64,000 nucleotides of DNA, taken from assembly GCF_001281315.1 (NCBI RefSeq), contig NZ_CP012479.1, forward strand, positions 620,001 to 684,000, read 5' to 3'. Below the pieces are notes generated by a model, which saw only the letters and a program-made list of their open reading frames with translations, was not told the origin of the DNA and ran no database searches. Of the stretch, positions 488-28,657 are shown in pieces (the stretch's first letter is position 1; each line of letters opens with the position of its first letter). Source of the DNA: Arthrobacter sp. ERGS1:01. GTDB lineage: Bacteria; Actinomycetota; Actinomycetes; Actinomycetales; Micrococcaceae. A program made the translations under genes and the position numbers.

Positions 488-691
488 GGGCTCTCCTTCG
501 AGGTGTTCCGGCCGCCGCGCTGGCGGTGCCGGAAAAGATGATCAAAAAATCTTTTGCCAGTTCCAAGTGTGCGCCATCGCCACCAAAAAGCCGCAAAAGC
601 CGCGAAATTCCGGGGTTTTGTGATGATCGGAAACGTGACGCATCAATGATTGAAACTGACGTATTTAAGAAATTACCCAACACTATGTTGC

Positions 692-717: not shown

Positions 718-731
718 GTTAAACGGTTAAC
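718..731. promoter_or_regulatory. LacI-type operator candidate (GTTAA-ACGG-TTAAC)
   Basis: GTTAAACGGTTAAC is an even-length palindrome with 6 of 7 base pairs matched and a central CG, the usual signature of LacI-family sites. It sits 74 bp before the first permease gene. The LacI gene at 4724 belongs to the same module, so autogenous control of the operon by that protein is a reasonable inference. Confidence 0.55.
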
Positions 732-1860: not shown

Positions 1861-1900
1861 ACCCGGCCCCGGCCAGGACTAGCCGAATAAGGAGACAACC

Positions 1901-2839: not shown

Positions 2840-2895
2840 GAACCCGCACCCGTCCTGAACAAGATCTGTCAAAACGTAAATGAAAGAGGTTTAGC

Positions 2896-4629: not shown

Positions 4630-4723
4630 CGGGAGTCCCGGGCTTGGCACTATGAGCAGTATCACCGGCAGTCCCACAAGGGGAGGGCCGACGTCGGAAA
4701 TCGGAAGCGAGGGGAGTCGGACC

Positions 4724-5725: not shown

Positions 5726-5761
5726 TTTTCGTATTTTCTTGAACAAGAGAGAAGTTGTGTT

Positions 5762-6967
5762 GTGACTGATTTGCTTCAGACCGTGCCGGACATGCGTGTT
5801 GGATTGGTTGGTTTTGGGTTGCGGGCTTCCTTGTGGAAGCACGTGCACAAGCCCGGCCAGGGCTCCGAAGTGGTCATGGTGTGTGACACCTCCGAACGCG
5901 GCCGGGCCGACGCCGCCGAGAAGATTCCGACGGCGGTTGTCACCGGTTCGCTGGATGACCTGCTGACGGCCGGGCTCGACGCCGTACTGGTGCTCACCCC
6001 GGACAACCGCCACGCGCTGGTTGCCGTGGAGACGCTCAAGGCCGGGATCCCCACCTTCTGCGAGAAGCCCCTCGACGTGACCCTGGAGGCGGCCGACGCC
6101 ATCCTGACCACGGCCTTCGAGACGGGCACGCGCCTTTACGTGGGCCACAACATGCGGCACATGCCGGTCGTGGTGCAGATGCGCGAACTGATCCAGGCCG
6201 GCACCATTGGTGAGGTCAAGGCAGTTTGGTGCCGCCACTTCGTGGGCAACGGCGGCGACTACTACTTCAAGGACTGGCACGCCGAGCGCGCCAACACCAC
6301 GTCACTGTTGTTGCAGAAGGGCGCCCACGACATCGACGTGATCCACTGGCTGGCCGGCGGCTACACCAAGCGCGTCTCCGCCGTTGGCGACCTGGCCGTG
6401 TACGGCGACGTCACCTCGCGCCGCGACAACACCGACCGCCGCATGTGGGACTGGTTCTCGCTGGACAACTGGCCGCCCACCGAGCAGACCGACCTGAACC
6501 CCGTCATCGACGTCGAGGACATCTCGATGATGCAGATGGTGTTGGACAACGGGGCCCTGGCCTCCTACCAGCAGTGCCACTTCACCCCCGACTACTGGCG
6601 CAACTACACGGTCATCGGTACCAAGGGCCGGATCGAGAACTTTGGCGACAACCCGGGCGACAAGATCAAGGTCTGGACCACCCGTTCCCAGGAGGGCTTC
6701 GTTGAGCCCGACCAGGAAGTCGAGATCCGCGACGGCGAAGGCGGCCACGGCGGCGCCGATCCGCTGCTGATCGCCGAGTTCCTGCGCTTCGCCCGGGACG
6801 GCGGCTCCACGGAGACGTCCCCGATCGCCGCGCGCGCCTCGGTCGCGGCCGGCGTGCTGGCCACGCAGTCGCTGCGGTCCGACGGCGGATCCCTGGAAGT
6901 CCCGGAACTGCCGGCCGACCTCGTGGAGTACTTCAACGCCGGCCAGCCCTCCCGCGCCGCCGTCTAG
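5762..6967 (+). CDS. Gfo/Idh/MocA family NAD(P)-dependent sugar dehydrogenase
   Basis: The 401-residue product opens with a Rossmann fold, RVGLVGFGLRASLWKHV at residues 12-28. The GxGxxG motif is altered to GFGLRA. The active-site FCEKPLDV motif of the family is at about residue 100, and a C-terminal alpha/beta domain contains KGAHDIDVIHWLAGG near 185. Family members oxidise or epimerise sugars and inositols with NAD(P). The start is a GTG 36 bp after the LacI stop, so it is probably cotranscribed with it. Its place between the regulator and a glycosidase suggests it processes a monosaccharide released from the imported glycan. The exact substrate cannot be assigned. Confidence 0.9.
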   Translation: MTDLLQTVPDMRVGLVGFGLRASLWKHVHKPGQGSEVVMVCDTSERGRADAAEKIPTAVVTGSLDDLLTAGLDAVLVLTPDNRHALVAVETLKAGIPTFCEKPLDVTLEAADAILTTAFETGTRLYVGHNMRHMPVVVQMRELIQAGTIGEVKAVWCRHFVGNGGDYYFKDWHAERANTTSLLLQKGAHDIDVIHWLAGGYTKRVSAVGDLAVYGDVTSRRDNTDRRMWDWFSLDNWPPTEQTDLNPVIDVEDISMMQMVLDNGALASYQQCHFTPDYWRNYTVIGTKGRIENFGDNPGDKIKVWTTRSQEGFVEPDQEVEIRDGEGGHGGADPLLIAEFLRFARDGGSTETSPIAARASVAAGVLATQSLRSDGGSLEVPELPADLVEYFNAGQPSRAAV

Positions 6968-7005
6968 ACCCGCGCGGGATCCGCGGGACCTGCGAGGACT
7001 TCGCC

Positions 7006-7044
7006 GCGAACTCTGCGCCACTTTCACAGTGGCGCAGAGTTCGC
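7006..7044 (+). terminator. 17-bp perfect hairpin with TTCAC loop
   Basis: Bases 7006-7022 pair perfectly with 7028-7044 around the loop TTCAC, 39 bp after the dehydrogenase stop. The core GCCACTTTCACAGTGGCGCA recurs at 15501-15520, so this is also a copy of a dispersed hairpin. There is no long U-run. Confidence 0.7.
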
Positions 7045-7108
7045 GTTTAACCTCGCGCCGGAATCACGGCGAAGTACTAAAGTGTGGCCCACACCCAAGG
7101 AGTCCGTC

Positions 7109-9385
7109 ATGGAAGCAACGCTGACCGCCACCCAACCGGCAGATCCACGTCCGGAAGCGGCAAACCCTCCGCCGGGGCCACGGGAGAATCTGTGCGTCGA
7201 TGCCCCCATCACCTCCTGGGAGGACGCCATTCCGCTGGGCAACGGCCTGATGGGCGGCCTCCTGTGGGGGGAAGGCAACATCCTGAAGCTTTCCCTTGAC
7301 CGCGGGGACCTGTGGGATGAGCGCACCCACGGGGAAGCCGGCTGGTGGCGAAAGCATCCCTGGTCCACGGCCGGGGACGATCCCGATCCCTGGGGCACGT
7401 ACTACGACGGGCTGACTCCCACCAAGCTTCCGGCCGGACGGGTGGAATTCCGCCTTGACGCCGGGCAGCGGCTGGCCGGTTTCGAGCTGGACCTTGCAAC
7501 CGCCCAGGGCAAGGCCACCACGACCGCCGGCGCCACCGTCCAGGCCTTCGCCTCCGCCACGGGAGACGTCATGATGCTCCGGGTCGCCGGCAGCGCCCTC
7601 GGCGCAGTCGAACTGGTGCCGGCCGGTGCCGGGGCCCGGGAGTTCGCCAACACGCACAGCGGCGGCGCCGTTGCCGCCCTGGGCTACCCGCCCGCCGAGC
7701 GCGGCAGCGCCGACTCTATGAGTTGGTATGTGCAGGAGGCTGCCGACGGCCTGCGCTATTGCGCGTGCGTTGCCGTGCGGGGCGGGGCTTCTGAGAGCAT
7801 CGCGGCAGTCACCATCACCACCTCCCACGACGCCGGCGGCCGGGACCTCCTGGCCCTGGCACAGGAACGCTGCAGGGAGGCGCTGGACGCCGGCTATGAC
7901 GCGATGGCGGAACCCCACACTGCCTGGTGGGAACGCTTCTGGGCCCAGTCGTCGGTGGAGATCCCCGACCCGGCGATCCAGCGCAACTACCTGTTCAACC
8001 GCTACCTTTACGGCGCCGGGTCCCGAAAAGGCGCCCCGCCCATGCCGCTGCAGGGCGTCTGGACCGCGGACAACGGCGGGCTGCCCCCGTGGAAGGGCGA
8101 CTACCACAACGACCTGAACACCCAGCTGAGTTACGGCGCCTACCCGGCGGCCGGGAACTTTGAGTCGGGGGAGTCCTACCTCGACTTCCTCTGGGAACTC
8201 ACCCCGGTGTTCCGTGACTTTGCCCGGGACTTTTACGGCACCTCCGGCCTGGCCTCCCCGGGCGTCATGTCCCGGCGGGGCCAGCCGCTGGGCGGGTGGA
8301 GCCACTACGCGATGTCGCCCACCATGAGCGCCTGGAACGCGCACCTTTTCTACCTGCACTGGCGCTACACCGAGGACGCGGAGTTCCTCGCCACGCGCGC
8401 CTACCCCTGGTGCGCCGACGTGGGGCAGTGCCTGGAGGAGCTGCTGACGGTGGACGACGACGGCACGCTGGTCCTGCCACGATCGTCCTCGCCGGAAATC
8501 TTCGACAACGCGGCGCAAGCCTGGCTGAAACCCAACAGCAACTATGACCTCATGTGCCTGAAGATGCTGTTCCTGGCCCTCGCCGAAATGGCCAAGGCAC
8601 AAACCCTGGGCGCCGACCACCTCAAGTGGCTGTCCCTGGCCGCTGCACTTGGCGACTTCCACGCGGCCGACGACGGCGAGCTGCTCCTGGACGCCGAGAC
8701 CCCCTTGGCCGAAAGCCACCGGCATTTGTCCAACCTCATCGGCATCCATCCGTTCAACCTGATCAGCATGGAAGGCGGAGAGGCGGACCGCCGGCGCATC
8801 CGGACCTCTTTGGAGGCGTGGGAGCGCCTCGGCACCGAGCAATGGACGGGCTATACGTGGGCCTGGATGGGATGCTTGCGGGCGCGCGTGGGCGACGGCG
8901 AGGAAGCGGCCCGGCACCTGGAGGTCTACGCCAAGGCGTTCATCTCCCGCAACGGCTTCCACGTCAATGGCGACCAATCGGGGCTGGGATACTCGTCCTT
9001 CAGCTACCGGCCGTTCACCCTGGAGGGCAACTTCGCCGCCATGCAGGTGGTGCAGGAGATGCTGCTGCAAAGTTGGAGCCCCACGCCGGGCGTGGTGGAT
9101 TCGGAGGTGCTGCGCATCTTCCCGGCGGTCCCCGCGAAATGGGCCGACGCCGGCTTCGTCGACCTTCGCGCCGAGGGCGGGCACCGGGTTTCGGCCGTGC
9201 GGACGGACGGAGCCACCACCTGGTTCATGGTCGTTGCGGGCAAGGACGGCACGGTGCGGATCCGGGACAACTTTGGCGGCCGGAAACCGCAATTCTCCGT
9301 TGCCGGCGTCCGGAAGGTTGGCGGGGACTTCCACGTGGCACTGCGCCGCGGCGAGGCGGTGACGGCAACCCTGGAACGCCCCTAG
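7109..9385 (+). CDS. GH95-like glycoside hydrolase (alpha-L-fucosidase-related), cytoplasmic
   Basis: The 758-residue product has the layout of GH95 enzymes. An N-terminal beta-domain opens with WEDAIPLGNGLMGGLLWG (about residues 33-50), and an (alpha/alpha)6 barrel follows. Landmark motifs are PLQGVWTADNGG and DYHNDLNTQLSYGAYPAAGN (331-350), PRSSSPE with Glu463 at the usual acid position, and ESHRHLSNLIGIHP near 540. In characterised GH95 fucosidases the second motif reads YHLNIN, so Asp335 replaces the first catalytic Asn. No signal peptide is visible, so it should act on imported oligosaccharide. An AAGGAG site at 7097-7102 fixes the ATG at 7109 rather than the GTG at 7082. Specificity is uncertain. 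Confidence 0.82.
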   Translation: MEATLTATQPADPRPEAANPPPGPRENLCVDAPITSWEDAIPLGNGLMGGLLWGEGNILKLSLDRGDLWDERTHGEAGWWRKHPWSTAGDDPDPWGTYYDGLTPTKLPAGRVEFRLDAGQRLAGFELDLATAQGKATTTAGATVQAFASATGDVMMLRVAGSALGAVELVPAGAGAREFANTHSGGAVAALGYPPAERGSADSMSWYVQEAADGLRYCACVAVRGGASESIAAVTITTSHDAGGRDLLALAQERCREALDAGYDAMAEPHTAWWERFWAQSSVEIPDPAIQRNYLFNRYLYGAGSRKGAPPMPLQGVWTADNGGLPPWKGDYHNDLNTQLSYGAYPAAGNFESGESYLDFLWELTPVFRDFARDFYGTSGLASPGVMSRRGQPLGGWSHYAMSPTMSAWNAHLFYLHWRYTEDAEFLATRAYPWCADVGQCLEELLTVDDDGTLVLPRSSSPEIFDNAAQAWLKPNSNYDLMCLKMLFLALAEMAKAQTLGADHLKWLSLAAALGDFHAADDGELLLDAETPLAESHRHLSNLIGIHPFNLISMEGGEADRRRIRTSLEAWERLGTEQWTGYTWAWMGCLRARVGDGEEAARHLEVYAKAFISRNGFHVNGDQSGLGYSSFSYRPFTLEGNFAAMQVVQEMLLQSWSPTPGVVDSEVLRIFPAVPAKWADAGFVDLRAEGGHRVSAVRTDGATTWFMVVAGKDGTVRIRDNFGGRKPQFSVAGVRKVGGDFHVALRRGEAVTATLERP

Positions 9386-12998: not shown

Positions 12999-13039
12999 CG
13001 TACTTCCCGCACTTACCTCCGCCTTTGAGAAGGAGTCCC

Positions 13040-14251: not shown

Positions 14252-14256
14252 CCCCT

Positions 14257-14334
14257 CCCGTCTGTGTTGCAGTTGTTGGACCGAAAACGTCGATTTCGCG
14301 GGTTTTTCGTCCAACAACTGCAACACAGACCGGG
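14257..14334 (+). terminator. Very long hairpin after kbl
   Basis: Bases 14261-14281 pair without mismatch with 14309-14329. The stem can be extended outward with a bulge and inward through an A-run and a T-run. It lies directly after kbl and before the oxidase gene. It may terminate kbl transcription, but the 21-bp perfect arms are longer than a terminator needs, so it could be a mobile palindrome. Confidence 0.65.
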
Positions 14335-14378
14335 GTGGGGAGTTTTACGCCCGGCCGGGGCTGTGCCACGATTGCCGC

Positions 14379-17638: not shown

Positions 17639-20600
17639 CTAGCCGTGGCTGCGCCGGCGGCGGACCAGCATGGTGGCCGCACCGCCAAACAGTGCCAGCA
17701 GTGCGAGGCCGAGGATCGGCAGGACCGCGTTGGCGCCCGTGTTGGGCAGCTCGTCCGTACCCGTGCCGTTGTCCGCCGGTGCGCTCGTGGCCGGAGCCGA
17801 CGAACCCGTGGCCGTGGCGGAGGCGGACGGCGAGGCCGACGGCGTCGTGCCGGGCGTGGTGGTGGCGCTCGGCGTGGCGCTCGGCGTGGCGGTGGGCGTC
17901 GGGTCCGTGGGCGGATCCGTGGGTTCAACGGTTGCCTTTGCGACCGTCACGGCCAGCGAACCGGTGGAGTCCGTGCCGTTGGCATCCGTACCGTACACAG
18001 CGATCCGGTGGTCGCCGGCGGGCGTGTTGGCCGGGATGGTGACCGCCAGCGTCGCAACGCCGGCGGCGTTGGCCTTGGCCGTGCCCAGAACCACCGGGGT
18101 GGAGTGCAGCTCGACGCGGAGCGTGGAGCCGGGTGCCAGGTTCGGCACCGTGATGGTGAGCTTGCCGCCGGCCGTCAGGGAATCCGACGGCACGTTCAGC
18201 GACGGCACCAGCGGCACCGGGTTGGGCTCGCCCGGGTCAACCGCTGCCGCCTTGACGACGACGTTGGTCGAGCCCGTGGCGGCCAGGCCGTTGGAACCGG
18301 TTCCGGAGGCGGACAGTGCCGCGTTTCCGGTGGCCGTGCCGGCGGCCGGGGTCACCTTGAAGGTGGCAACGCCGTTCGCATCGGCGGTGGCCTTGCCCAG
18401 CTCCTTGCCGGCCAGGGCCAGGGTGGCCTGCGCGCCGGCCTTGAGCTTGCCCACCGTGACGGTGGACTCGGTGCCGATCTGCAGCTCGCCGCCGGCAACG
18501 GCAACCGTGAGGTCAACCGGAACGGGCTTCTGGGTCACCGTCACCGTGATGGTGCCGGTGGCCGCCTTGCCGTTCTTGTCGGTTCCCGCGACAACCAGGG
18601 CGGCGGCGCCGGCCTTGGCGTCGGCCGGAACCGCCAGCGAGAAGGTGGCCACGCCGGCGGCATCGGCAACGGCCGTGACGGCCGTGCCGTCAGCCAACTT
18701 CAGCGAAGCGGAGGAGCCGGCCTGCAATTCGGCCACCGTCACCTTGTGCGTGGAACCCTGCTCGAGCGCGTTGCCGCCCTCGACCACGGGTGCCAGCGTC
18801 AGGGCCGGCACCTCGGTGCCGCAGCTGAACTTGGCGTCGGCCCAGTCGGCCCACTCGTCACCGTTCTTGCCGTCAACGAGGATCTTTGCCGCGTTCAGGT
18901 CGATGTAGTTGACGCCCTTGACGTCCACGGTGAACAGGTACAGCGGGCTGTCCACGGTCAGCTGCGGCGAGGTGGCGAGCACCTTGCCGTCGCCCACCAC
19001 GGTGAACACCACGTTGCCGCGGTGCGCCTTGGACAGCTTTGCGTCGTCGATGCCGACGGCGGCCGTGAACGTGGTGCATGCCCCGCCCAGGTAGTAGCTG
19101 ATGGCGGAGTCGGCGTGCACGCCCAGGCCCTTGGCGTAAGCCTTGCCCTTGAGCGTCAGGGCGCTGCCGTCGCCGGCGGCATCCTCGCCGTTGTTCATGT
19201 CCTTCTCCACCGGGCCCCACTCGTTGACGGGGGTGCCGACGAACGGCAGGTCACTGGCGAAGCTGTCCTTGGTTGGTGCCGGCGGCGGGGTGCCGACGGT
19301 CGTGATGGCGACGGAGCCCGTGGCTGCCTTGCCGTTGGAGTCGGTGCCGGCGACCGTGATGGTCCCGGCGCCCACGGCGGCGTCGGCGGCAACCTTGTAG
19401 CTGTACGTCGCAACGCCGGAAGCGTTGGCCGTGGCCGTGCCGAGGACCTTGGCGCCCAGCGAGAACGTGGCGTCGGTGCCGGCCTTCAGCTCACCCACGG
19501 TGACCGTGTAGCTCTTGCCCTGTTCCAGCGGCCCGCCCGGGTTGACCACGGGGGCCAGCACGAGTGCGGGGGCGTCGTTGGAGCAGATGAACTTCGCGTC
19601 GGCCCAGTCGGACCAGTCGTTGCCGTTGGAGCCGTTGGGGTCGACGTTCAAGGTCACGTACTTGGCGCCGTTGAGCGGCACGTTGATCGGAACCGCGGCG
19701 CTGGCGCCGGTCAGGACGCCGGAGTTGTAGAGTTCCGCGCCGTTGTCGCCGAGGACCGTGAAGATGACCGAGCCCTTGGTGCCCTGGAAGTCGTCAATGC
19801 CGATGACGGCCGTGAACGCCTTGCACTGCGCCCCCACGAAGTACTTGACGGTGGAGAGCGCGTGGACGCCCAGGCCCTTGGCGTAGACCTTGCCGTCAAC
19901 GGTAAGGGGAGGGCCGTCGTTGGCGCCCTGTTCGCCGTTGGCGACGTCCTTTTCGGCCGGGCCCCAACCGTTGGCGGGGGTGCCGATCCACTGCATGTCG
20001 GACGCGAAGGTGTCCGCGGTGGGCGGGTGCGGCAGCGTGTAGACGCCCAGCGTCGTCACGGCGCTGCGTGCGCCGATCGGGTCAACCGTGGTGGTGTAGG
20101 CCAGGTTTGCGGTGATGTCGTAGTTGCCGTCGGCGGCTGCCGGGGGGCGTACGGTCCAGGTGGTGACCAGCTTGGCGCCCGCGGCCAGCGTTGCCGCCGT
20201 GGCGGGGGTGGTGGCCGTTGCCGTCCAGCCGGCGGGCACCGTCAGCTTCACTGCGACGTCCTTCACGGCTGCCGGCTCGTTGGAGGTCAGCGTCGTGGTG
20301 AACGTGTTGTCGGTGTTCTGCTCGATGATCGCGCCGGTCTGTGCCAGCGAAAGCTGGGCGCAGGCCGGGGTCTTGGTGGACGTGCCGAGGTCGCGGATCA
20401 GGACGTTGTCGACGGAGACGTCGGCGGCTGCCGAACCGTTGCGCAGCAGGCCCACATAGCTGTCGCCGCAGGCGCTGGCCGTGAAGTTCTGCACCCAGCG
20501 GGTGTTGGAGGTTGCCACCGGGAGCGCCTTGGCTTCGGTCTGTACGGCACCGGTGGCGCTGTCGTAGCCGCCCACCCAGGAGTACTCGTTGGCCTTGGAG

Positions 20601-23593
20601 CTTTGGTAGTCGAAGGAGACCTCGTAGTCGTGCCCGGCCTTGAACGGCATGGTGGACATGGTGGTGCGGTAGACGAGGCCGGTGTTCTCCTCGTGGGACT
20701 TCAGCGAGAACTGGCCGGCCAGGACGTCGTCGACGGTCTTGGGCGTGATGGTGCCGCCCACGGAGGGGCCGTACTTGCTGCCCTTTTGCGTGTAGGGATC
20801 GTGCCGCGGCGCGAGGTGCGTGCGCGGGTCGGTGACGCCGCCGGCGTCGCCCTTCACGAACGGGCCCCAGCCCTGGTCGACATTCTCGAAGTCCTCGGCC
20901 AGCACGACGCCGGACGGGTTGGTTGGGGTGACATCGGCGGCCGTGACGTGCGCGGTCTTGACCACGCGGACGTCGTCGATCTTGACCACGGTGTCGCCTG
21001 CGGGGGCGGAGATGGTCAGGGTCGGCTTGTCGCCGTCGTTCTTGACATCCACCAGCACGCTCACGCGCTGGGTGAAGGTGTTGTTCTTCTGGTCCGCACC
21101 CACGGTGTTCAGCAGGGGCGAGGAGGAGATGGTGTTGCTGACCGCCGGGGAGCCGGAGACCGTGGCGCTCAGGGTGGTGGCGCGCTTCTTCAATGCCGCC
21201 GTCTTGGCGCGGTCCGGGTCGATGCCGATCCAGGCGCTCACGGAGTAGGTGCCCTTCTTCAGGGCCCCGAGCTGCTGCGAGATGCCGGAGGCGGACGTGC
21301 CGAGCTGCGCCGAGGTCAGGCCCTTGGCGGAGGTGGCCAGGGTGGCCCCGCCCTGCGGGTTCCAGGCGGCCAGGGTGCCGGAGTTGAAGCCGGGGTCCGT
21401 GACGGGGCTGCCCTCGCCCCAGACGGTCGACGCCGGAACGGTGGTCACTGCCGATACCGCCGGCACGGTGGCCAGGGGAGTGGTGGGAACCAGCACGTAA
21501 GCCGTGTTGGCCTCCGGGGACAGCGTGACCGCCTTGTTGGCGACGGCGACGTCCTTGACGAAGGTGCGGCCCTGGTCCGTGAGCTTGTAGAGCTTCAGGG
21601 TGGTCTGGTTCGCAAACGCTGGCGTCAGCGTCCAGGTCTGGGTGCCGCCGGCCGCGCTGTAGTTGTACAGCTTGGTCTGCGTGGTGTCGTTCTTGGCGTC
21701 CTTGCCGAACTCGACGGGGGAGCTCGACCACGGCAGCAGGTAGTCGTGGCCGCGCAGTACGTCCACGCCGTCCTGGGTGATCACGCGGTTATCCAGCGAG
21801 GTGCCGGTGATCTTCAGGTTGTTCTCCAGCGTGATCGCCGCCGGCGTCCACGTCTTGATTTCCTGCTGCTGGACGAACTTGGCCGGGACGTTGTTGTCCC
21901 ACACGTTCTTCAGGAACGCGTTGTAGTTGTTCTGCCCGGTCCAGCCTTCCCACTCAACGATGTGCGGGGTGCCCAGGCGGGGGTCCGGGTTCCAGGTGTC
22001 GCGCTGGGTGTTTTGGGCAAAGCGCAGGATCTGCGAGTTCCAGCCTTTGGTGTTTGAGCCGCCGTAGTTCTCATCCACGGCCCAGTGGGACCAGGTGTTG
22101 TTGCGGGGCATGGCCGCGGCAAACTCCGAGGCAACCGAGAAGCCGTTGGCGATGATGGAGTCCTGCAGCTTCTGGCCCACCCAGCCGGACTCGTAGTACA
22201 CGTCGATGTAGTTGTTGGTCAGGTTGTCGTCCGTCTTGTCGGCAAGGGCCTTGATGCGGGCGGCCTGGGTGCCGGAGAGGACATCGGTGCGCTGGTCGAT
22301 GCCGTAGGACTGTTCGAGCCAGTTCCAGCCGGCGCTCAGCGGGGTCTTCACGAACGAGTCGTTGAACGCCTTCGCCTCAGGGTACGCCTCGGTGTTGTTC
22401 ATATGGACGCTGAACGTGGCGCCGTACGCCTTGGCCTGCTTGAGCAGCGTGTTCATGTCGTCCACGCCGCCGGCGCGCTGGTTGAAGTTGTCGCCGAAGT
22501 CGGTGTTGGCCGAGTCGTGGCCCTCGCTCGTGAAGCCCTTCAGGAGGGCCATCTGGCCCAGTCCGTCGGTGGCCAGCGAGATGTGCTTGACGTCGTCGAG
22601 CGTGCGCAGGAACGGGTTGGTGGCCTGGCTGGCGAAGTTGAACGGGATGTGCTGGACAACCCGGTTCTTCACGTCCTGCCAGCCGGCCGGCTTGATCTCG
22701 ATGTCGCGGGAGGCGACGGCGCCGTCCTGCCAGTCGACGGTGCCGTCGGCGTTGGCGTCGCCGGTGATGACCACCTTGGCCATGGGCAGGGCTTCGGTCT
22801 GCTTGTCGGCGGCACCCTTGGCGCGGTACAGCCAGGCGCCGGAGGAGATGCCCGTCTTCTTCCCGGCGCCGTCGGTCTTGACCTGGCGCCAGAAGCGGCC
22901 CCGGTCGCTGGAGGCGAGGGTGTTGTCGGCGGCCGAGATGGCGCCGTCGTACAGGGAGTTGCTCTCAAAGCCGGCCGCGAGCTGGTCGGTGGAGGCGATG
23001 GCCACCATGGACGTCTTGGCTGCGGCGTCGACGGCGGTGGCCGCCGTGATGGGGGTGAAGGTGTCGCCCGTGACGGCACGGTCAACGGAGACCACGGCCG
23101 AGGCCACGGAGGCGCCCGGCTCGGAGGAGGAGACCGTGACCAGGTCCTGGTCCATGATCTGGAGCGTGGAGACCCGGGCGGTGCCGGCTTCCTTGATCTC
23201 CGTGACATTGAACGAGAGCACGTTCTTCTCCACGGACAGCCGGGCCTTCAGGCTCACGCCGTCCAGGCCGGGCACCGCGATGTTGTAGTCGATGGACTTG
23301 CCGTCGGGGTTCACGACGGAGGTGACGGTGACGTTCTGGTCGGTGCCGTTAATGCGCAGCTTGGTGGCGACGGCGGTGGCGCCGGTCATGGTCTTGGTGC
23401 CCAGCGTGTAGCGCAAGGCCTGGGGGAAGGCGGTGGAGACCTGCACGGACATGGTGCCGGAGTCGATCACCGCCGCCGTTGGGTCGGCCGCGAGGGCGGG
23501 TGCAGCCGCGGCGATGGGTACTATGGCGCCGGCCATGACGGCTCCGGCGATCCCCATCCCCAGCCATCTGCGTTGGTGTCGTGCGAGTGACAT
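17639..23593 (-). CDS. Cell-wall-anchored GH101-like endo-alpha-N-acetylgalactosaminidase
   Basis: The 1984-residue secreted protein should release Gal-GalNAc type O-glycans from glycoproteins. A signal peptide (to about 35, ending APALAA) leads into a beta-rich domain and then the GH101-like barrel. Barrel landmarks are DFGDNFNQRAGGVDDMNTL, IDVYYESGW with candidate nucleophile Asp464, and ASEFAAAMPRNN with candidate acid Glu490. Carbohydrate-binding-like modules (about 720-1090) and a NEW3-like domain follow. Two NPCBM modules (about 1190-1335 and 1440-1590) alternate with four Ig-like repeats (about 1350-1885). A Ser/Thr/Pro stalk, the sortase motif LPNTG (about 1949), a membrane span and RRRR close it. 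The ATG at 23593 is fixed by AAGGAG 7 bp upstream; the frame opens at 23611. The size resembles bifidobacterial enzymes. Confidence 0.88.
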   Translation of the reverse strand: MSLARHQRRWLGMGIAGAVMAGAIVPIAAAAPALAADPTAAVIDSGTMSVQVSTAFPQALRYTLGTKTMTGATAVATKLRINGTDQNVTVTSVVNPDGKSIDYNIAVPGLDGVSLKARLSVEKNVLSFNVTEIKEAGTARVSTLQIMDQDLVTVSSSEPGASVASAVVSVDRAVTGDTFTPITAATAVDAAAKTSMVAIASTDQLAAGFESNSLYDGAISAADNTLASSDRGRFWRQVKTDGAGKKTGISSGAWLYRAKGAADKQTEALPMAKVVITGDANADGTVDWQDGAVASRDIEIKPAGWQDVKNRVVQHIPFNFASQATNPFLRTLDDVKHISLATDGLGQMALLKGFTSEGHDSANTDFGDNFNQRAGGVDDMNTLLKQAKAYGATFSVHMNNTEAYPEAKAFNDSFVKTPLSAGWNWLEQSYGIDQRTDVLSGTQAARIKALADKTDDNLTNNYIDVYYESGWVGQKLQDSIIANGFSVASEFAAAMPRNNTWSHWAVDENYGGSNTKGWNSQILRFAQNTQRDTWNPDPRLGTPHIVEWEGWTGQNNYNAFLKNVWDNNVPAKFVQQQEIKTWTPAAITLENNLKITGTSLDNRVITQDGVDVLRGHDYLLPWSSSPVEFGKDAKNDTTQTKLYNYSAAGGTQTWTLTPAFANQTTLKLYKLTDQGRTFVKDVAVANKAVTLSPEANTAYVLVPTTPLATVPAVSAVTTVPASTVWGEGSPVTDPGFNSGTLAAWNPQGGATLATSAKGLTSAQLGTSASGISQQLGALKKGTYSVSAWIGIDPDRAKTAALKKRATTLSATVSGSPAVSNTISSSPLLNTVGADQKNNTFTQRVSVLVDVKNDGDKPTLTISAPAGDTVVKIDDVRVVKTAHVTAADVTPTNPSGVVLAEDFENVDQGWGPFVKGDAGGVTDPRTHLAPRHDPYTQKGSKYGPSVGGTITPKTVDDVLAGQFSLKSHEENTGLVYRTTMSTMPFKAGHDYEVSFDYQSSKANEYSWVGGYDSATGAVQTEAKALPVATSNTRWVQNFTASACGDSYVGLLRNGSAAADVSVDNVLIRDLGTSTKTPACAQLSLAQTGAIIEQNTDNTFTTTLTSNEPAAVKDVAVKLTVPAGWTATATTPATAATLAAGAKLVTTWTVRPPAAADGNYDITANLAYTTTVDPIGARSAVTTLGVYTLPHPPTADTFASDMQWIGTPANGWGPAEKDVANGEQGANDGPPLTVDGKVYAKGLGVHALSTVKYFVGAQCKAFTAVIGIDDFQGTKGSVIFTVLGDNGAELYNSGVLTGASAAVPINVPLNGAKYVTLNVDPNGSNGNDWSDWADAKFICSNDAPALVLAPVVNPGGPLEQGKSYTVTVGELKAGTDATFSLGAKVLGTATANASGVATYSYKVAADAAVGAGTITVAGTDSNGKAATGSVAITTVGTPPPAPTKDSFASDLPFVGTPVNEWGPVEKDMNNGEDAAGDGSALTLKGKAYAKGLGVHADSAISYYLGGACTTFTAAVGIDDAKLSKAHRGNVVFTVVGDGKVLATSPQLTVDSPLYLFTVDVKGVNYIDLNAAKILVDGKNGDEWADWADAKFSCGTEVPALTLAPVVEGGNALEQGSTHKVTVAELQAGSSASLKLADGTAVTAVADAAGVATFSLAVPADAKAGAAALVVAGTDKNGKAATGTITVTVTQKPVPVDLTVAVAGGELQIGTESTVTVGKLKAGAQATLALAGKELGKATADANGVATFKVTPAAGTATGNAALSASGTGSNGLAATGSTNVVVKAAAVDPGEPNPVPLVPSLNVPSDSLTAGGKLTITVPNLAPGSTLRVELHSTPVVLGTAKANAAGVATLAVTIPANTPAGDHRIAVYGTDANGTDSTGSLAVTVAKATVEPTDPPTDPTPTATPSATPSATTTPGTTPSASPSASATATGSSAPATSAPADNGTGTDELPNTGANAVLPILGLALLALFGGAATMLVRRRRSHG

Positions 23594-23701
23594 CAAGAGC
23601 TCCTTGAACAACTTTGTTTTAGGGTGCGGGCCGCGTTCCTGCCCGCTCGAAAAGGTCCAGCTGAATGCAGTGACAACAGGTGACTTTGAGGTACATCACA
23701 C

Positions 23702-23715
23702 TGTTATCGATAACA
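23702..23715. promoter_or_regulatory. Perfect 14-bp palindrome TGTTATCGATAACA
   Basis: This even palindrome with a central CG lies about 110 bp upstream of the GH101-like gene. Its shape is that of a LacI-family operator. No LacI gene is adjacent, so the regulator would be encoded elsewhere, unless the DeoR protein of the cluster uses it. Confidence 0.6.
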
Positions 23716-23788
23716 TCGTTTTATTATTGCCTTTTCGTGATTCGGATTACAAGTCCCGGGCGTCCATTCGACGAGCGGCCGTGACAAA

Positions 23789-23843
23789 AATCAATTAGTG
23801 ATTGATTCTGACGTTTTGGGGGTGCAATCAATCAATTGGTGAT
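23789..23843. promoter_or_regulatory. Two direct 14-bp repeats, probable DeoR operators
   Basis: AATCAATTAGTGAT (23789-23802) and AATCAATTGGTGAT (23830-23843) differ at one base and are spaced 41 bp start to start, about four helical turns. The first also forms a 7+7 inverted repeat, AATCAAT-TAGTG-ATTGATT (23789-23807). They lie 82-136 bp before the operon start. The cluster's own DeoR protein is the natural candidate to bind them cooperatively. Confidence 0.62.
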
Positions 23844-23924
23844 ATAGTTGGGTCAACGATGCACAACCCCTCCGGTCCTCGATGTGAGCCACGCGGCGGG
23901 CATGAAACAAGGAGAATCCCCAGC

Positions 23925-24836
23925 ATGACTGAATTTGCGCCCAGCGAACTTGGCCCCTTCATGGATGCCGAACTGACCAGCCAGCCCGAGGTGTGGGCCC
24001 AGGCCATCGCCCAGGCCAAGAGCGAAAACCTGCTCCCGGCCGACGGCCTGCGCGTCGCCGTCATCGGTTGCGGCACGTCCTGGTTCATGGCGCAGAGCTA
24101 CGCCACCGCCCGTGAAGGCGCCGGCAAGGGCGTCACCGACGCTTTCGCCGCCTCCGAATCCTTCCTGGGCGCCGAGCGCGGCTACGACGCGGTCGTCGCC
24201 ATCACCCGCTCCGGCACCACCACCGAGGTGCTCGAAGTCCTCACCGCCATCAAGGGCACCGTCCCCACCGTGGCCCTCGTCGGCGACGTCACCTCGCCGA
24301 TCATGGTGCTGGCCGACGCCGTCGTCGAACTTCCCTACGCCGACGAGCAGTCAGTGGTCCAGACCCGCTTCGCCACCACCGCCCTGGCCTACCTGCTCAC
24401 GAGCGTCGGCGTGGACCTTACCGCCGCCGTCGAGGACGCCAAGAGCGCCGTCACCGCCCCCGTGGAGCAGGAACTGATCGACGCCGAACAGTTCACCTTC
24501 CTGGGCACCGGCTGGACCGTGGGCCTGGCCCACGAAGCCGGGCTGAAGATGCGCGAAGCCGTGCAGGGCTGGACCGAGTCCTACCCGGCCAAGGAATACC
24601 GCCACGGCCCGATCTCCATCGCCGCCCCGAACCGCGTCACGTGGATGTTCGGCGAGCAGCCCGAGGGCCTGGACGCCGACGTCGCCAAGACCGGTGCGCT
24701 CTACATCAACACCACCGTCCACCCGTTGGCCGAGCTGGCCCGCGTGCACCGCGTCACCCTGGAACGTGCCCGCGCCCGCGGAATGAACCCGGACCTGCCG
24801 CGCAACCTGACCCGCTCGGTCATCCTCGCGGACTGA
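23925..24836 (+). CDS. SIS-domain sugar isomerase/deaminase, AgaS-like
   Basis: The 303-residue product is built from SIS domains. The first opens at about residue 45 with VAVIGCGTSWFMAQSYA and has the phosphosugar loop TRSGTTTEVLEVL. The second carries FLGTGWTVGLAHEAGLKMREAVQGW and EYRHGPISIA. Such proteins include AgaS, which converts galactosamine-6-phosphate to tagatose-6-phosphate plus ammonia, and the isomerase half of GlmS. It has no glutaminase domain. As first gene of an operon with two sugar kinases and a tagatose-type aldolase, the AgaS role fits best. The ATG at 23925 has AAGGAG upstream. A fructosamine deglycase-like role is the main alternative. Confidence 0.83.
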   Translation: MTEFAPSELGPFMDAELTSQPEVWAQAIAQAKSENLLPADGLRVAVIGCGTSWFMAQSYATAREGAGKGVTDAFAASESFLGAERGYDAVVAITRSGTTTEVLEVLTAIKGTVPTVALVGDVTSPIMVLADAVVELPYADEQSVVQTRFATTALAYLLTSVGVDLTAAVEDAKSAVTAPVEQELIDAEQFTFLGTGWTVGLAHEAGLKMREAVQGWTESYPAKEYRHGPISIAAPNRVTWMFGEQPEGLDADVAKTGALYINTTVHPLAELARVHRVTLERARARGMNPDLPRNLTRSVILAD

Positions 24837-24869
24837 CGATCCGGTAGGGCGGCCACTGGCTAAGATGTT

Positions 24870-24906
24870 AGGCACCCCACGAAACCGGTGGGGTGCCTGA
24901 CTTTTC
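24870..24906 (+). terminator. Rho-independent hairpin between the SIS gene and the ROK kinase gene
   Basis: AGGCACCCCAC pairs with GTGGGGTGCCT, followed by GACTTTTCTT. It lies 33 bp after the SIS stop and about 50 bp before the next gene. It may attenuate rather than end transcription, giving more SIS protein than kinase. Confidence 0.8.
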
Positions 24907-24957
24907 TTCCGTACACGCTGCGTTGGCGGCAACCTCCTGCGAAAGTACCCAATCTTC

Positions 24958-25956
24958 ATGAACTCTTCCACGCCCGGCCAGGTCCTCCCCGGCGCCACGT
25001 CCACTGCCCCCGAGACCGCCGGCGCCGTCCTGGCGTTCGACGTCGGAGGCACCGACATGAAGGTGGGCATCATCTGCGGCGAACCCACCGCCGACGGTGC
25101 GCAGCTGAGCGACCTCCAACGCCACCCCACACCGCTCGACGGCGAACGCTCCGGCGACACCGTCTGCGCACGGATCGTGGAACTGACCCGCGACTACCAG
25201 GCCCGCCACCCCGAGCTGGCCATCTCCGCCGTGGGCGTGACCGTCCCGGGAATCGTCGATGAAGTCAACGGCGTGGGCGTCTTCTCCGCCAACCTTGGCT
25301 GGCGCGACTACCCGTTCACGGCAACCCTGACGGAGGCACTGGGCCTGCCCGTCGCCTTCGGCCACGACGTATCCATGGCCGGCGAGGCCGAGTTCCGCAT
25401 CGGAGCCGCCGTCGGCAAACGCGATGTGCTGATCCTGGTTATCGGCACCGGAATCGCCGGCGCCGTGCTGTGCGACGGCAGCCGGGTGGCCGGCGACGGC
25501 TACGCCGGCGAAATTGGCCACGCCATGGTCCCCGCCCCCGACGGCGGCCTGGCAATCCTCGAATCGATCGGCTCCGCCGGTGCCATCGCCCGCCGCTACG
25601 CCGAAGCCGCCGGCCAGCCGGTGGACGGCGCGCGCACGGTGCTGGCCCGGGCCGGGGCCGGCGACGCCGCCGCCCGGCAGGTGTGGGACGACGCCGTCAA
25701 CGCGCTGGCCTTCAGCGTCGCCCAATGCGTGTCGATCCTCGGCACCGAAACCGTGGTCCTGGGCGGCGGGCTGTCCATGGCCGGGCCGGCGCTCTTTGAA
25801 CCGCTCGCGGCCCGCGTCGATGCGCTGCTCTCCTTCCACCGCCGCCCGCAATTTGTCCATGCGGTGCTGGGCGAGAATGCCGGGCTCATCGGCTCCGCCC
25901 TGAAGGCACGCACCCTGATCGAACCGGCAACCGACCCCGCAAAGGCATCCTTGTGA
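24958..25956 (+). CDS. ROK-family sugar kinase, possible GalNAc/amino-sugar kinase
   Basis: The 332-residue product has the ATP-phosphate loop AVLAFDVGGTDMKVGI (about residues 22-37). A DVSMAGEAEF segment with the catalytic-region Asp lies near 140, and VIGTGIAGAVL near 162. After GEIGHAMVPAP, where ROK kinases usually have a CxCGxxGC zinc site, the sequence reads DGGLAILESIGSAGAIARR with no cysteines, so the structural zinc is missing. Family substrates include glucose, ManNAc, GlcNAc and allose. In this operon, phosphorylation of GalNAc or galactosamine before the AgaS-like step is a plausible inference. Its stop overlaps the next start by 4 bp (GTGA), so the two are translationally coupled. 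Confidence 0.88.
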   Translation: MNSSTPGQVLPGATSTAPETAGAVLAFDVGGTDMKVGIICGEPTADGAQLSDLQRHPTPLDGERSGDTVCARIVELTRDYQARHPELAISAVGVTVPGIVDEVNGVGVFSANLGWRDYPFTATLTEALGLPVAFGHDVSMAGEAEFRIGAAVGKRDVLILVIGTGIAGAVLCDGSRVAGDGYAGEIGHAMVPAPDGGLAILESIGSAGAIARRYAEAAGQPVDGARTVLARAGAGDAAARQVWDDAVNALAFSVAQCVSILGTETVVLGGGLSMAGPALFEPLAARVDALLSFHRRPQFVHAVLGENAGLIGSALKARTLIEPATDPAKASL

Positions 25957-26885
25957 ACAATGTGGTCCTGACCGTCACGCCCAACCCCGCCGTTGACGTC
26001 ACCTACACAGTGGATGGCGTGGAGCCGGGCGCCTCGCACCGCGTCCCCACCCCGTTGTACCGGGCCGGCGGCAAGGGCCTGAACGTCTCCCGTGTGGCCC
26101 ACCAGCTTGGCTTCCCCACGCTGGCCGTCGCCACGGCCGGCGGGGCATCCGGCGTCCAGCTTCGCGAGGACCTGGATACGTCCGGGATCAGCCACCATCT
26201 GGTGGACGTGGCCGCGGCCACCCGCCGCACGATCGCCCTGGTGGACACCCGCAACGACACCACGAGCATCTTCAACGAAACCGGCCCCGCACTGGCCGAC
26301 GCCGAATGGCGCGCCCTGACCGCCGCCGTCGTCGCCGGGCTGGGCACGGCAGGGGTCCTGGTCGGCTCGGGATCGCTGCCGCTGGAGGCCCCCGCCGACT
26401 TCTACCCGTCGCTGGTGGGGTTGGCGCACGACGCCGGTGTTCCGGCGATCATCGACACCTCCGGCAGCGGGATCCTGGCCGCCGCCCGGGCCGGGGCCGA
26501 CCTGCTCAAACCCAACAACCACGAGCTCATGGAGGCGGTGGGGGAGAGCGACCTCGTCAGCGCCGCCCGCAAGCTCATGGCGCTCGGTGCCCGTCGCGTC
26601 CTGGTCAGCGTGGGTGAGGAAGGCATGCTGGCCTTCAGCGCCGACGCCCCCACCAGCTACATCCAGGCAAAGCTGCCGGCACCGCTGCGCGGCAACCCGA
26701 CTGGTGCCGGCGACGCCGCGGTGAGTGCGGCCGCCGTCGCCCTCGCCCACGGCGAAACAGAGTTGCGCGAGATCCTGCGCCGGGCCACGGCCTGGAGCGC
26801 CGCCGCCGTGCTCATGCCCGGAGCCGGGGAAATTTCACCCCGCTTTGCCGAACTGGCCGAGCAACTGATCCTGACAGACCACTGA
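25953..26885 (+). CDS. PfkB-family tagatose-6-phosphate / 1-phosphofructokinase
   Basis: The 310-residue ribokinase-fold enzyme has the first signature GGKGLNVSRVAHQLG (about residues 37-51). The anion hole and catalytic Asp lie in NPTGAGDAAVSAAAVALA (about 248-265). The sequence pattern TVTPNPAVDVTY at the start is that of the LacC/FruK branch, which phosphorylates ketose phosphates at position 1 or 6. In this operon, phosphorylation of tagatose-6-phosphate to tagatose-1,6-bisphosphate is the expected step. It starts with GTG inside the ROK stop codon region. A fructose-1-phosphate kinase role cannot be ruled out, but there is no PTS gene nearby to supply that substrate. Confidence 0.88.
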   Translation: MNNVVLTVTPNPAVDVTYTVDGVEPGASHRVPTPLYRAGGKGLNVSRVAHQLGFPTLAVATAGGASGVQLREDLDTSGISHHLVDVAAATRRTIALVDTRNDTTSIFNETGPALADAEWRALTAAVVAGLGTAGVLVGSGSLPLEAPADFYPSLVGLAHDAGVPAIIDTSGSGILAAARAGADLLKPNNHELMEAVGESDLVSAARKLMALGARRVLVSVGEEGMLAFSADAPTSYIQAKLPAPLRGNPTGAGDAAVSAAAVALAHGETELREILRRATAWSAAAVLMPGAGEISPRFAELAEQLILTDH

Positions 26886-26912
26886 CCCCACCTACCTTTA
26901 GGACGCACTTTC

Positions 26913-27764
26913 ATGGCATTGACCAACACCCGCGACATCATGGACCTGGCCGCGAAGACCGGCACGGGCCAGGGCGCCTTCAACGTCATCCACCTGGAAA
27001 CCATTGAAGGGCTCATCGGCGGGGCCGAAGCCGCCGGCCGCCCCGTGATCTTGCAGATTTCCGAGAACTGCGCCAAGTTCCACGGCGGCCTGGAGCCCGT
27101 GGCCCTGGCCACGCTGGCCGCCGCCCGCAAGGCCTCGGTACCGGTCGCCGTGCACCTTGACCACGCCGAGGACGAGGCCCTGGCCTACCAGGCAGTGGAC
27201 CTGGGCTTTGGCTCGATCATGTACGACGGCGCCCACTTCGACTATGCAAAAAACGTCGAGGTGACGGCCCGCGTGGCCGCGTACGCGCACGAGCGCGGCG
27301 TCTACGTCGAGGCCGAATTGGGCAAGGTCGGCGGCAAGGACGGCGCCCACGCACCCGGCGTATTAACCGACCCGGCCGAGGCGGTTGCGTTTGTTGCCGC
27401 GACCGGCGTGGACGCCCTGGCCGTGGCCGTGGGCTCCTCGCACGCCATGACCGAACGCTCCGCCGCCCTGAACCTGGGCCGGATCGCGGAGCTGAAGGCC
27501 GCCCTGGACGTGCCGCTGGTGCTGCACGGCTCCTCCGGTGTATCGGATGAGAACATTGTGGCCGCCATCGCCGCGGGCATGACCAAGATCAACGTCTCCA
27601 CCCACCTGAACGGCTTCTTCACCCGCGCCGTGCGTGAGTTCCTGGACGCCAACCCGGCCGTCGTGGATTCGCGCAAGTACCTCGGTGCAGGGCGCGCCGC
27701 CTTGGTGCCGGAAGTCTCCCGCCTGCTAGCTTTGTTTGCAGGCGTTGAAGCGGCGCGGAACTAA
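26913..27764 (+). CDS. Class II tagatose/fructose-bisphosphate aldolase (KbaY/GatY-like)
   Basis: The 283-residue zinc aldolase cleaves a ketose-1,6-bisphosphate to glyceraldehyde-3-phosphate and dihydroxyacetone phosphate. The catalytic Asp83 and zinc ligand His84 are in HLDHAEDEAL. The other zinc ligands are His178 in VGSSHAMTE and His205 in LVLHGSSGV. The phosphate-binding KINVSTHLNGFF follows. The length fits the short KbaY/GatY group rather than the roughly 340-residue housekeeping Fba of actinobacteria. It lies 27 bp after the kinase, in the same operon, and completes a tagatose-6-phosphate route. Tagatose versus fructose stereochemistry cannot be settled by reading. Confidence 0.9.
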   Translation: MALTNTRDIMDLAAKTGTGQGAFNVIHLETIEGLIGGAEAAGRPVILQISENCAKFHGGLEPVALATLAAARKASVPVAVHLDHAEDEALAYQAVDLGFGSIMYDGAHFDYAKNVEVTARVAAYAHERGVYVEAELGKVGGKDGAHAPGVLTDPAEAVAFVAATGVDALAVAVGSSHAMTERSAALNLGRIAELKAALDVPLVLHGSSGVSDENIVAAIAAGMTKINVSTHLNGFFTRAVREFLDANPAVVDSRKYLGAGRAALVPEVSRLLALFAGVEAARN

Positions 27765-27771
27765 GGCTTCA

Positions 27772-27820
27772 GGGGGACGCCGCGCACAGATAATGCAGCT
27801 GTGCGCGGCGTCTCCCTTTG
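27772..27820 (+). terminator. Terminator after the aldolase
   Basis: GACGCCGCGCACAG pairs perfectly with CTGTGCGCGGCGTC, and the stem extends with GGG/CCC and is followed by a T-rich stretch. It ends the catabolic operon and isolates the DeoR gene. Confidence 0.87.
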
Positions 27821-27865
27821 TTTAGTGCAGAATTATTTATTGACGAACTCTATGGGAGAGGTTTC

Positions 27866-28657
27866 ATGAACCGGACCGAACGGTTGACAGCAATCCTGGA
27901 CATCTTGGCCGGCGACGGGCAGGTCGACGTGGATGAGATTGTCGAAAAGCTCGGCGTCTCCCCGGCCACGGCACGGCGCGACCTGGATTCGCTGGCCAAC
28001 GAGCGGCTGCTGACCCGAACCCGCGGCGGCGCCACCTCCGGGTTTGTCTCCTATGACCTCCCCGGCAGGTACAACCGCGACGACCATGCCGAGCAGAAGC
28101 ACCAGATTGCCGTGGCCGCAAGCGAACTGATTCCCAAGGGCGCCGTGATCGGCCTGTGCGGCGGCACCACCAGTACGGCCCTGGCCCAGGTGCTCTCCAC
28201 CCGTGAGGACCTGATGGAACAGTCCAACCGGCCCACGCTGACGGTGGTCACCAACGCCATCAACATCGCCGCGCAGCTGGCCATCCGGCCCAACTTCAAG
28301 ATCATGGTCACCGGCGGCATCGTCAACCCGCGCTCCTATGAGCTGGTGGGACCGTACGCGGATTCCATCCTGCAAAAGGTGGCCCTGGACATTGCGTTCA
28401 TTGGCGTCAACGGCATCGAGCCCGGCGCCGGCCCCACCATCAACGACGAGGGCGAGGCCTCGGTGAACTCGCGCATGGCCCGCCGCGCCTCCGAGGCCTA
28501 CATGCTGGCGGATTCCTCGAAGATCGGCCAGCGCGCCTTCGCCACCATGGAGGACCACCGCTTCCACAAACTCATCACCGACTCCGGCATCACGGCCGAT
28601 CAGTTGGCGGCGTTCAACGACGCCGGCACCGAGGTCATCGTCGCACCCGAGGTCTAA
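27866..28657 (+). CDS. DeoR/GlpR-family repressor, AgaR-like
   Basis: The 263-residue product has a DeoR winged HTH, RTERLTAILDILAGDGQVDVDEIVEKLGVSPATARRDLDSLA (residues 3-44), then the TRTRGGA linker. A sugar-phosphate isomerase-like effector domain follows, with GLCGGTTSTALAQVL and FIGVNGIEPGAGPTINDEGEA. This family senses phosphorylated sugars. The ATG at 27866 follows a GGGAGAGG site; an upstream in-frame start at 27818 would lie within the terminator. It is the natural repressor of the adjacent amino-sugar operon and perhaps of the wall-anchored glycosidase, with the direct repeats at 23789-23843 as candidate sites. Confidence 0.9.
   Translation: MNRTERLTAILDILAGDGQVDVDEIVEKLGVSPATARRDLDSLANERLLTRTRGGATSGFVSYDLPGRYNRDDHAEQKHQIAVAASELIPKGAVIGLCGGTTSTALAQVLSTREDLMEQSNRPTLTVVTNAINIAAQLAIRPNFKIMVTGGIVNPRSYELVGPYADSILQKVALDIAFIGVNGIEPGAGPTINDEGEASVNSRMARRASEAYMLADSSKIGQRAFATMEDHRFHKLITDSGITADQLAAFNDAGTEVIVAPEV

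Follow-up and report, generated by a model that had tools for sequence, protein, structure and literature searches.

A wall-anchored GH101 enzyme, its neighboring candidate GalNAc operon, and a predicted LacI-type regulon in Arthrobacter sp. ERGS1:01

In a 64,000-nucleotide stretch of Arthrobacter sp. ERGS1:01 DNA (contig NZ_CP012479.1, positions 620,001 to 684,000; hereafter the window, to which unprefixed coordinates refer), a gene for a glycoside hydrolase of family GH101 diverges from an operon encoding a SIS-domain protein, a ROK kinase, a PfkB kinase, an aldolase, and a DeoR-family regulator. Our favored reading, which we hold with somewhat better than balanced confidence, is that the wall-displayed GH101 enzyme belongs to a LacI regulon of approximately 11 enzymes that feeds a catabolic operon for N-acetylgalactosamine (GalNAc). 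Mucin-type O-glycan degradation has mostly been studied in gut and pathogenic bacteria. Below, the prefixes C, L, and G are our handles for contigs, loci, and genomes.

RESULTS

The window encodes a cell wall-anchored GH101 enzyme

The open reading frame (ORF) at 17639..23593 (− strand) is intact and encodes a 1984-aa GH101 endo-alpha-N-acetylgalactosaminidase. It matches the GH101 catalytic domain model PF12905 with 383.5 bits (E 7.1e-115; gathering score, 25) at 21914..22729 (−), corresponding to genome position C3:641914-642729. The same ORF also matches the Pfam models PF18080, PF17451, PF17974, PF21466, NPCBM (twice), NPCBM_assoc, and Gram_pos_anchor, the companion models being mutarotase-like, beta-sandwich, galactose-binding, and domain-5. 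PDB matches were 6qfo, 2zxq, and 5a55 (E 4e-128 to 2e-126), and the nearest solved relatives are EngBF of Bifidobacterium longum and a second endo-alpha-N-acetylgalactosaminidase (5a55, 3ecq), which we take to be SpGH101 of Streptococcus pneumoniae. Asp464 (22202..22204, −) and Glu490 (22124..22126, −) align with positions that are presumably the nucleophile and the acid/base of EngBF, and both residues are invariant across 10 aligned Micrococcaceae GH101 proteins. The catalytic, beta-sandwich, and galactose-binding domains and the catalytic residues are alike in the Arthrobacter protein, EngBF, and SpGH101. However, the Arthrobacter protein scores 477 bits with the SpGH101 model, far below its cutoff of 2900, and its alignment with EngBF has a seven-residue gap after the nucleophile position.

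EngBF and SpGH101 are surface displayed, and the same is proposed for the Arthrobacter enzyme. By eye, it has a signal peptide; near its C terminus, an LPNTG sortase motif (17735..17749, −) is followed by a hydrophobic stretch and an RRRR tail, the anchor model NF058582 scores 29.1 bits (cutoff, 27), and the genome harbors four sortase genes. The initial sequence-only reading of the window, which had described a 1984-residue LPXTG-anchored GH101-like enzyme, was borne out in this respect, and the family models place the protein inside GH101. As judged from its family, the enzyme would probably cut Gal-beta1,3-GalNAc (core 1) off Ser/Thr of animal-type O-glycoproteins.

GH101 is accompanied by the SIS gene throughout the family

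For comparison, we used 295 genomes from the family (Micrococcaceae). Of these, 36 have the GH101 gene and 86 have the SIS gene. All 36 GH101 genomes contain SIS, in comparison to 50/259 genomes without GH101 (Fisher p 9e-23, with kinship ignored). These counts include three weak cases: the SIS match of G023 is an 84-residue piece, SIS of G158 is 52% identical, and in G144 stop codons interrupt GH101. The pairing of GH101 with the catabolic operon, already claimed from the window, is more than chance.

In 28/36 GH101 genomes, the two genes are divergent neighbors, with 1.1 to 1.8 kb between the catalytic domain and SIS in 27 pairs and 6.2 kb in G143. The distance is 24 to 37 kb in four genomes, and in four more the genes are >60 kb apart or on separate contigs. 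A six-gene block recurs across the fetched loci, while its flanks vary. In six of the seven genus members without GH101, the matches to a hutI-like gene (TIGR01224, 295.3 bits; cutoff, 298.15) and to SIS are 0.1 to 0.7 kb apart; the stretch fetched from the remaining genome gave no hutI match. GH101 thus behaves like a cassette that is acquired or lost at a single junction, hutI and SIS adjoining each other in genomes that lack it. Additional GH101 copies were also observed: G247 has a tandem pair of unequal score (L072 4156-14558; 420 and 371 bits), and in G052, G113, G202, and G284 another contig bears a further GH101 gene.

Among the matches listed (80 named loci; at least 554 relatives), GH101 was found in Arthrobacter, Paenarthrobacter, Agromyces, Microbacterium, Oerskovia, Isoptericola, many Streptomyces, and Nonomuraea. 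These genera are usually found in soil. The closest named GH101 loci in this set are from Arthrobacter, in agreement with the Arthrobacter-like host deduced earlier from the letters alone. SIS was detected inside the fetched stretch, some stretches being short, at 15/80 named loci, 14 from Micrococcaceae and one from Isoptericola cucumis. The earlier remark named gut or pathogenic bacteria as the best-known sources of GH101; among these matches, the family is also common in actinomycete genera.

The adjacent operon fits a route from GalNAc to triose phosphates

The five (+)-strand genes divergent from GH101 are present as first described, except that the SIS start was moved to 23925, 3′ of AAGGAG. 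The first gene (23925..24836) encodes a GlmD-like SIS-domain protein of 303 aa, a proposed galactosamine-6-phosphate (GalN-6-P) deaminase/isomerase. It is followed by genes for a ROK-family sugar kinase (24958..25956), a proposed GalNAc/GalN 6-kinase; a PfkB hexose-phosphate kinase (25953..26885), a proposed tagatose-6-phosphate kinase; a GatY/KbaY-related class II ketose-bisphosphate aldolase (26913..27764); and an AgaR-related DeoR-family regulator (27866..28657). The ORF of the last gene is open from 27818, and the Met at 27866 is its likelier start.

The nearest model of the SIS protein is GlmD NF041128, although its score of 78 bits is below the cutoff of 580. Its designation as AgaS-like had to be given up: TIGR02815 yields 20.2 bits (cutoff, 529.2), and identity to Escherichia coli AgaS is 19%. 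The PfkB protein belongs to the hexose kinase subfamily TIGR03168 (244.8 bits; cutoff, 216.4) but is below the cutoff of LacC TIGR01231 (120.6 versus 409.55 bits), and its nearest model is 1-phosphofructokinase. Similarly, the aldolase passes TIGR00167 (222.2 bits; cutoff, 215.6) and is 37% identical to E. coli KbaY, but it is below the cutoffs of the KbaY (NF009375) and tagatose-bisphosphate (TIGR01858) equivalogs. The models scoring highest with the DeoR protein are GlpR and AgaR, both below cutoff (AgaR NF040755, 148.5 bits; cutoff, 260); it is 30% identical to E. coli AgaR.

As a set, the two kinases, the SIS protein, the aldolase, and the DeoR regulator fit a predicted route from GalNAc to triose phosphates. 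The GalNAc assignment rests on the linkage to GH101, because the family models do not specify it; of the GalNAc/galactosamine operon postulated earlier, the linkage thus stands and the specificity does not follow from the models. The cluster indeed lacks a deacetylase gene, as first noted, and a nagA search elsewhere in the genome led to a NagA-like gene outside the window (C3:2589682; TIGR00221, 214.2 bits; cutoff, 225.65). In E. coli, NagA can substitute for AgaA (PMC3668189), and therefore a NagA encoded elsewhere could suffice in Arthrobacter. Three findings speak against our reading of the operon. The family models do not favor tagatose over fructose substrates, the aldolase scoring alike for both bisphosphates; the best NagA candidate is below its model cutoff; and 50 genomes of the sample have SIS, with its own promoter box, without having GH101. 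Because of this occurrence and the box, SIS is not dedicated to GH101.

A second cluster with SIS (41%), PfkB, class II aldolase, an ABC binding protein, permease-like ORFs, and DeoR was observed at L128 (C2:83000-102900, on a 152-kb contig).

GH101 and the SIS operon have different promoter sites

Site search and conservation revealed a palindrome, TGTTATCGATAACA, at 23702..23715, a candidate LacI-family operator of the GH101 promoter. The palindrome resembles LacI-family operators. In a comparison of positions, all 16 genus genomes with GH101 had the exact form TGTTATNNATAACA, which stands at 20/21 of their GH101 genes; the gene without it is the first of the two tandem copies in G247. By conservation, a DeoR-type box, TGATTGATTCTGACGTTTT, was recognized in the SIS operon promoter (23799..23817, +). 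In 18/23 genus genomes, with or without GH101, a box of this type (TGATTGAWNNTGAYGTTTT) precedes the matched SIS start by 125 to 147 bp. No exact palindrome was found at the SIS promoter in the seven genus genomes lacking GH101.

These separate sites also bear on the possibility that the operon serves another amino sugar (glucosamine or fructosamine phosphate) and is beside GH101 by inherited gene order only. Such an operon could well have a SIS protein nearest GlmD and a PfkB protein nearest 1-phosphofructokinase, could occur in the 50 genomes without GH101, and could adjoin the hutI-like gene where GH101 is missing. However, SIS is kept in 36/36 GH101 genomes, including the four with a distance of 24 to 37 kb and the four in which the sole GH101 gene is on another contig or at a distance of >60 kb. 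Furthermore, a glucosamine-6-phosphate route would give fructose-6-phosphate and would need no dedicated kinase plus aldolase, and AgaR is, with GlpR, the highest-scoring model of the DeoR protein, even if below cutoff. We regard a different amino sugar as unlikely and retain GalNAc as the proposed substrate.

The palindrome recurs upstream of genes for predicted, mostly wall-anchored glycan enzymes

With at most one mismatch, the palindrome occurs at 12 sites in the 4.94-Mb genome, four of them exact. The expectation is 0.66 sites (65.5% G+C assumed), the backward-read control gave 0 matches, and window shuffles gave 0.01 sites per 64 kb. Eleven of the 12 sites lie at a distance of 6 to 116 bp from a called ORF start. 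Eight of these ORFs are GH101, GH35, GH59, GH20, GH89, GH84, GH95, and GH31 genes; the other three encode a sialidase-like protein with BNR repeats, a GDSL esterase with ricin-B, and an unassigned protein containing F5/8C and ricin-B domains. Signal peptides were recognized by eye, and 10 of the 11 proteins end with an LPXTG-like anchor, the exception being GH35. The GH31 protein is nearest to a solved GH31 alpha-N-acetylgalactosaminidase (6m76, 7f7r; E 8e-122). The GH35 beta-galactosidase gene is divergent from a LacI gene (L118 8154-9170, C3:2981 kb), with the palindrome between them. Thus, as in a LacI regulon, the genes have a common upstream site, which also adjoins a LacI-family gene. 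This genome-wide set, which could not be recognized from the window alone, is the stronger evidence for the use of host glycans.

Several of these loci showed additional features. Two BNR-repeat sialidase-like genes form a tandem (L127 15457-18279 and L139 1045-5619, C1), with the palindrome between them, upstream of the second. The unassigned protein, a LAYTG-anchored protein of 1088 aa (L119 6561-9827; C3, ~3457.6-3460.8 kb), has the palindrome 57 bp upstream. Its domain of ~400 aa had no match in Pfam or NCBIfam and no PDB sequence match below E 0.4; it is present in 10/295 family genomes and is ~16 kb from GH101 in G221. A low-confidence model of this domain looks propeller-like. A structure-based assignment was discarded at a mean pLDDT of 59, and the Foldseek matches (GH117, sialidases, GH43, GalNAc deacetylase) are hints only. 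An exact palindrome in a SIS_2 gene (C3:3896211) was not counted as an operator, since it falls within coding sequence and relatives have a site at the same locus, too. DeoR-box matches inside the BadF-type kinase gene beside the SIS_2 gene are also in coding sequence and were set aside. Besides the SIS_2 gene that contains the palindrome, this locus (L120 9479-12298) harbors genes for a BadF-type kinase, an ABC importer, and, by eye, an RpiR-like regulator.

In 22 relatives from the genus, we found 63 exact sites, 19 of them at GH101. From the 44 others, 40 were fetched. Fifteen of the 40 are at GH35, some inside an over-extended ORF call, and in 14/15 cases a LacI gene is on the other side; these LacI genes were recognized mostly by weak BLAST matches to another LacI, that in L175 by Pfam, and that in L190 by eye. 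One site each was found at genes for GH95, an M66/TagA protease, and a binding protein of the peptide type and at a LacI-like ORF; at two sites nothing was called. The M66/TagA-type metalloprotease, which has a ricin-B domain, is encoded in G247 (L207 5104-8778), with the exact palindrome just before the called ORF. Such metalloproteases resemble secreted mucinases. When one mismatch was allowed in G255 and G024, 12/20 sites were at glycan enzymes, assigned mostly by BLAST to the ERGS1:01 regulon (GH101, GH35, secreted GH35, GH31, GH20, GH84, and sialidase), two were at the SIS_2 locus, and one was at a binding protein.

Other results are less favorable to the regulon. Nineteen of the 40 fetched sites belong to a SIS_2 locus that adjoins another ABC system; 14 are inside the called SIS_2 gene, in coding sequence, and five were assigned to the locus by the same neighboring binding protein. 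Moreover, 5/20 sites in G255 and G024 precede nothing relevant, the backward control gave one match in G255 (0 in G024), and the palindrome was not seen by eye in the GH101 promoters of other genera.

Accordingly, it was considered whether the palindrome is bound by another regulator (ROK, GntR, or other LacI) and whether the enzymes form a regulon for glycans or starvation in general rather than for mucin. Binding of the palindrome by LacI is a prediction, some sites precede no glycan gene, and a ROK-regulator-like protein (by eye; L127 4492-5709) is encoded near one site. In addition, GH59, GH84, and GH20 are not mucin specific. On the other hand, a LacI gene is common to the GH35 site in 14/15 GH35 loci of relatives and in ERGS1:01 itself, the site is of the kind known for LacI-family operators, and the members GH101, alpha-GalNAcase-type GH31, sialidase, GH89, GH95, and, in one relative, M66 do not suggest a general regulon. 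In our judgment, another regulator or a general regulon is improbable, and we continue to assume a LacI regulon for host-type glycans.

A candidate sugar importer is encoded in the same window

The sequence-only reading had reported a dedicated importer as missing from the cluster. However, an ABC sugar importer operon is present in the window, beyond the coordinates given for the cluster (805..4578, +), and is a candidate for uptake of the released sugar. It encodes two permeases (805-1860 and 1901-2839) and a probable binding protein (2896-4578, +), which has no Pfam match and was recognized by its position and lipoprotein-like N terminus. The genes that follow (4652..9385, +) encode a LacI protein (4652-5725), a Gfo/Idh/MocA protein (5762-6967), and a GH95-like enzyme (7082-9385). 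For the Gfo/Idh protein, assignment to GH109 was ruled out, since its PDB matches (best 60 of 82) are ordinary oxidoreductases. Upstream of the importer, we detected a DeoR-type box resembling that of the SIS promoter (TGATTGAAACTGACGTATT; 647..665, +) and a palindrome (GTTAAACGGTTAAC; 718..731), perhaps an operator of the LacI gene 4652-5725.

At E 1e-90, the first permease has matches in 41/295 genomes, 33 of which pass an orthologue threshold of at least 495 bits that we set at a score gap. All 33 best-scoring orthologues are in SIS-bearing genomes, whereas five of the eight genomes with weaker matches have no SIS match. These 33 genomes comprise 27/36 GH101 genomes. Permease and SIS are on one contig in 27/33 genomes, 12 to 53 kb apart in 26 of these 27, and the importer-SIS gene order is kept in genomes without GH101, too. 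Because inherited synteny could explain the linkage to SIS, the importer stays a candidate. Its assignment is weakened by the DeoR-type box at 647-665, which is not conserved: only degenerate counterparts with two to three mismatches were found, at the corresponding position in three relatives. The palindrome GTTAAACGGTTAAC is better conserved, being exact at 16/30 importer loci.

Between the importer region and GH101, genes for threonine dehydrogenase, glycine C-acetyltransferase, and a DAO-family oxidase (11898-15464) are syntenic in relatives. Threonine-rich mucin peptides could feed them; their order is also kept without GH101. A PADLOC scan of one unrelated ORF of the window revealed nothing.

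DISCUSSION

Gene families, conservation, linkage, common sites, and anchors were read directly from the DNA, and on this basis we propose the following model, in which the substrates, the repressor and its effector, the assignment of regulators to sites, and the order of the pathway are predicted. The LacI-family repressor encoded divergently from GH35 (C3:2981 kb) would bind TGTTATNNATAACA and repress the approximately 11 enzymes, and it would free the whole surface set once Gal-beta1,3-GalNAc or galactose enters the cell. Outside the cell, sialidase, fucosidase-type, hexosaminidase, alpha-GlcNAcase, and alpha-GalNAcase enzymes would trim the chains, and at the cell wall GH101 would release the core-1 disaccharide from O-glycoproteins. 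The disaccharide or GalNAc would be imported, perhaps through the ABC importer 805-4578, and GH35, which is anchorless and probably cytosolic, would take off Gal. ROK would then convert GalNAc to GalNAc-6-P, and the NagA-like deacetylase encoded elsewhere would produce GalN-6-P. From this, SIS would form tagatose-6-P, PfkB would form tagatose-1,6-bisphosphate, and the aldolase would yield triose phosphates. The DeoR protein would release the GalNAc operon separately from the LacI set.

Parts of this model have counterparts in known systems. Bifidobacterial GH101 is tied to the galacto-N-biose/lacto-N-biose (GNB/LNB) phosphorylase pathway, while the Arthrobacter gene adjoins a kinase operon instead. 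The E. coli aga/kba genes are similar in the DeoR-type regulator, the KbaY-type aldolase, and the SIS step, but import there proceeds by a phosphotransferase system (PTS), and AgaS shows little identity to the Arthrobacter SIS protein. The use of ATP-dependent kinases instead of a PTS, which the first description of the window had mentioned, is not novel: a non-PTS GalNAc pathway of Shewanella has been described (AgaP, AgaK, AgaA-II, AgaS), in which a permease and a kinase substitute for the PTS (PMC2996990). The Arthrobacter set differs from that of Shewanella in its ROK kinase, GlmD-like SIS protein, candidate ABC importer, and linkage to GH101, and its cluster lacks a deacetylase gene. In Bacteroides thetaiotaomicron, the PUL BT4240-50 couples mucin O-glycoprotein processing to GalNAc metabolism, and its GalNAc kinase reportedly acts on O1 (PMC11992087). 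There, the genes form a single clustered locus, while the Arthrobacter set is dispersed, wall anchored, and provided with one common site.

Every enzyme family except one and the kinase-based GalNAc route were already known. Among the open-licence papers listed on GH101, mucin enzymes, or GalNAc use in Arthrobacter or soil actinobacteria, titles and abstract beginnings contained no description of this system. As far as this literature extends, the Micrococcaceae GH101-operon cassette, the GlmD-like SIS protein in its proposed role, and a wall-displayed enzyme set with a single site are new.

The natural substrate may instead be something other than vertebrate mucin, namely, O-glycoproteins from insects, from other animals living in soil, or from guano, which would imply the same chemistry and a different ecology. 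We consider this a real possibility, if a tentative one. The closest named hosts among the matches listed are Arthrobacter and other actinomycetes, and penguin guano was the original source of isolation of A. psychrochitiniphilus (PMC6265309). In contrast, the sialidase, fucosidase-type, and alpha-GlcNAcase enzymes would suit vertebrate mucin better.

In its fullest form, the proposal is that environmental Arthrobacter strains have a complete, wall-displayed system for mucin-type glycoprotein degradation, encoded on at least two contigs under one LacI operator, with a novel form of the GalNAc pathway (ROK plus GlmD-like SIS) and an uncharacterized, possibly propeller-fold family; we see the arguments for and against this full form as evenly balanced. 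One operator and one LacI protein would make a simple set for testing it. New mucin-active enzymes, such as the unassigned 1088-aa protein, could be found by operator rather than by family. If the proposal is true, mucin-type O-glycan degradation exists in environmental actinomycetes, in a dispersed yet coregulated and sortase-displayed form.

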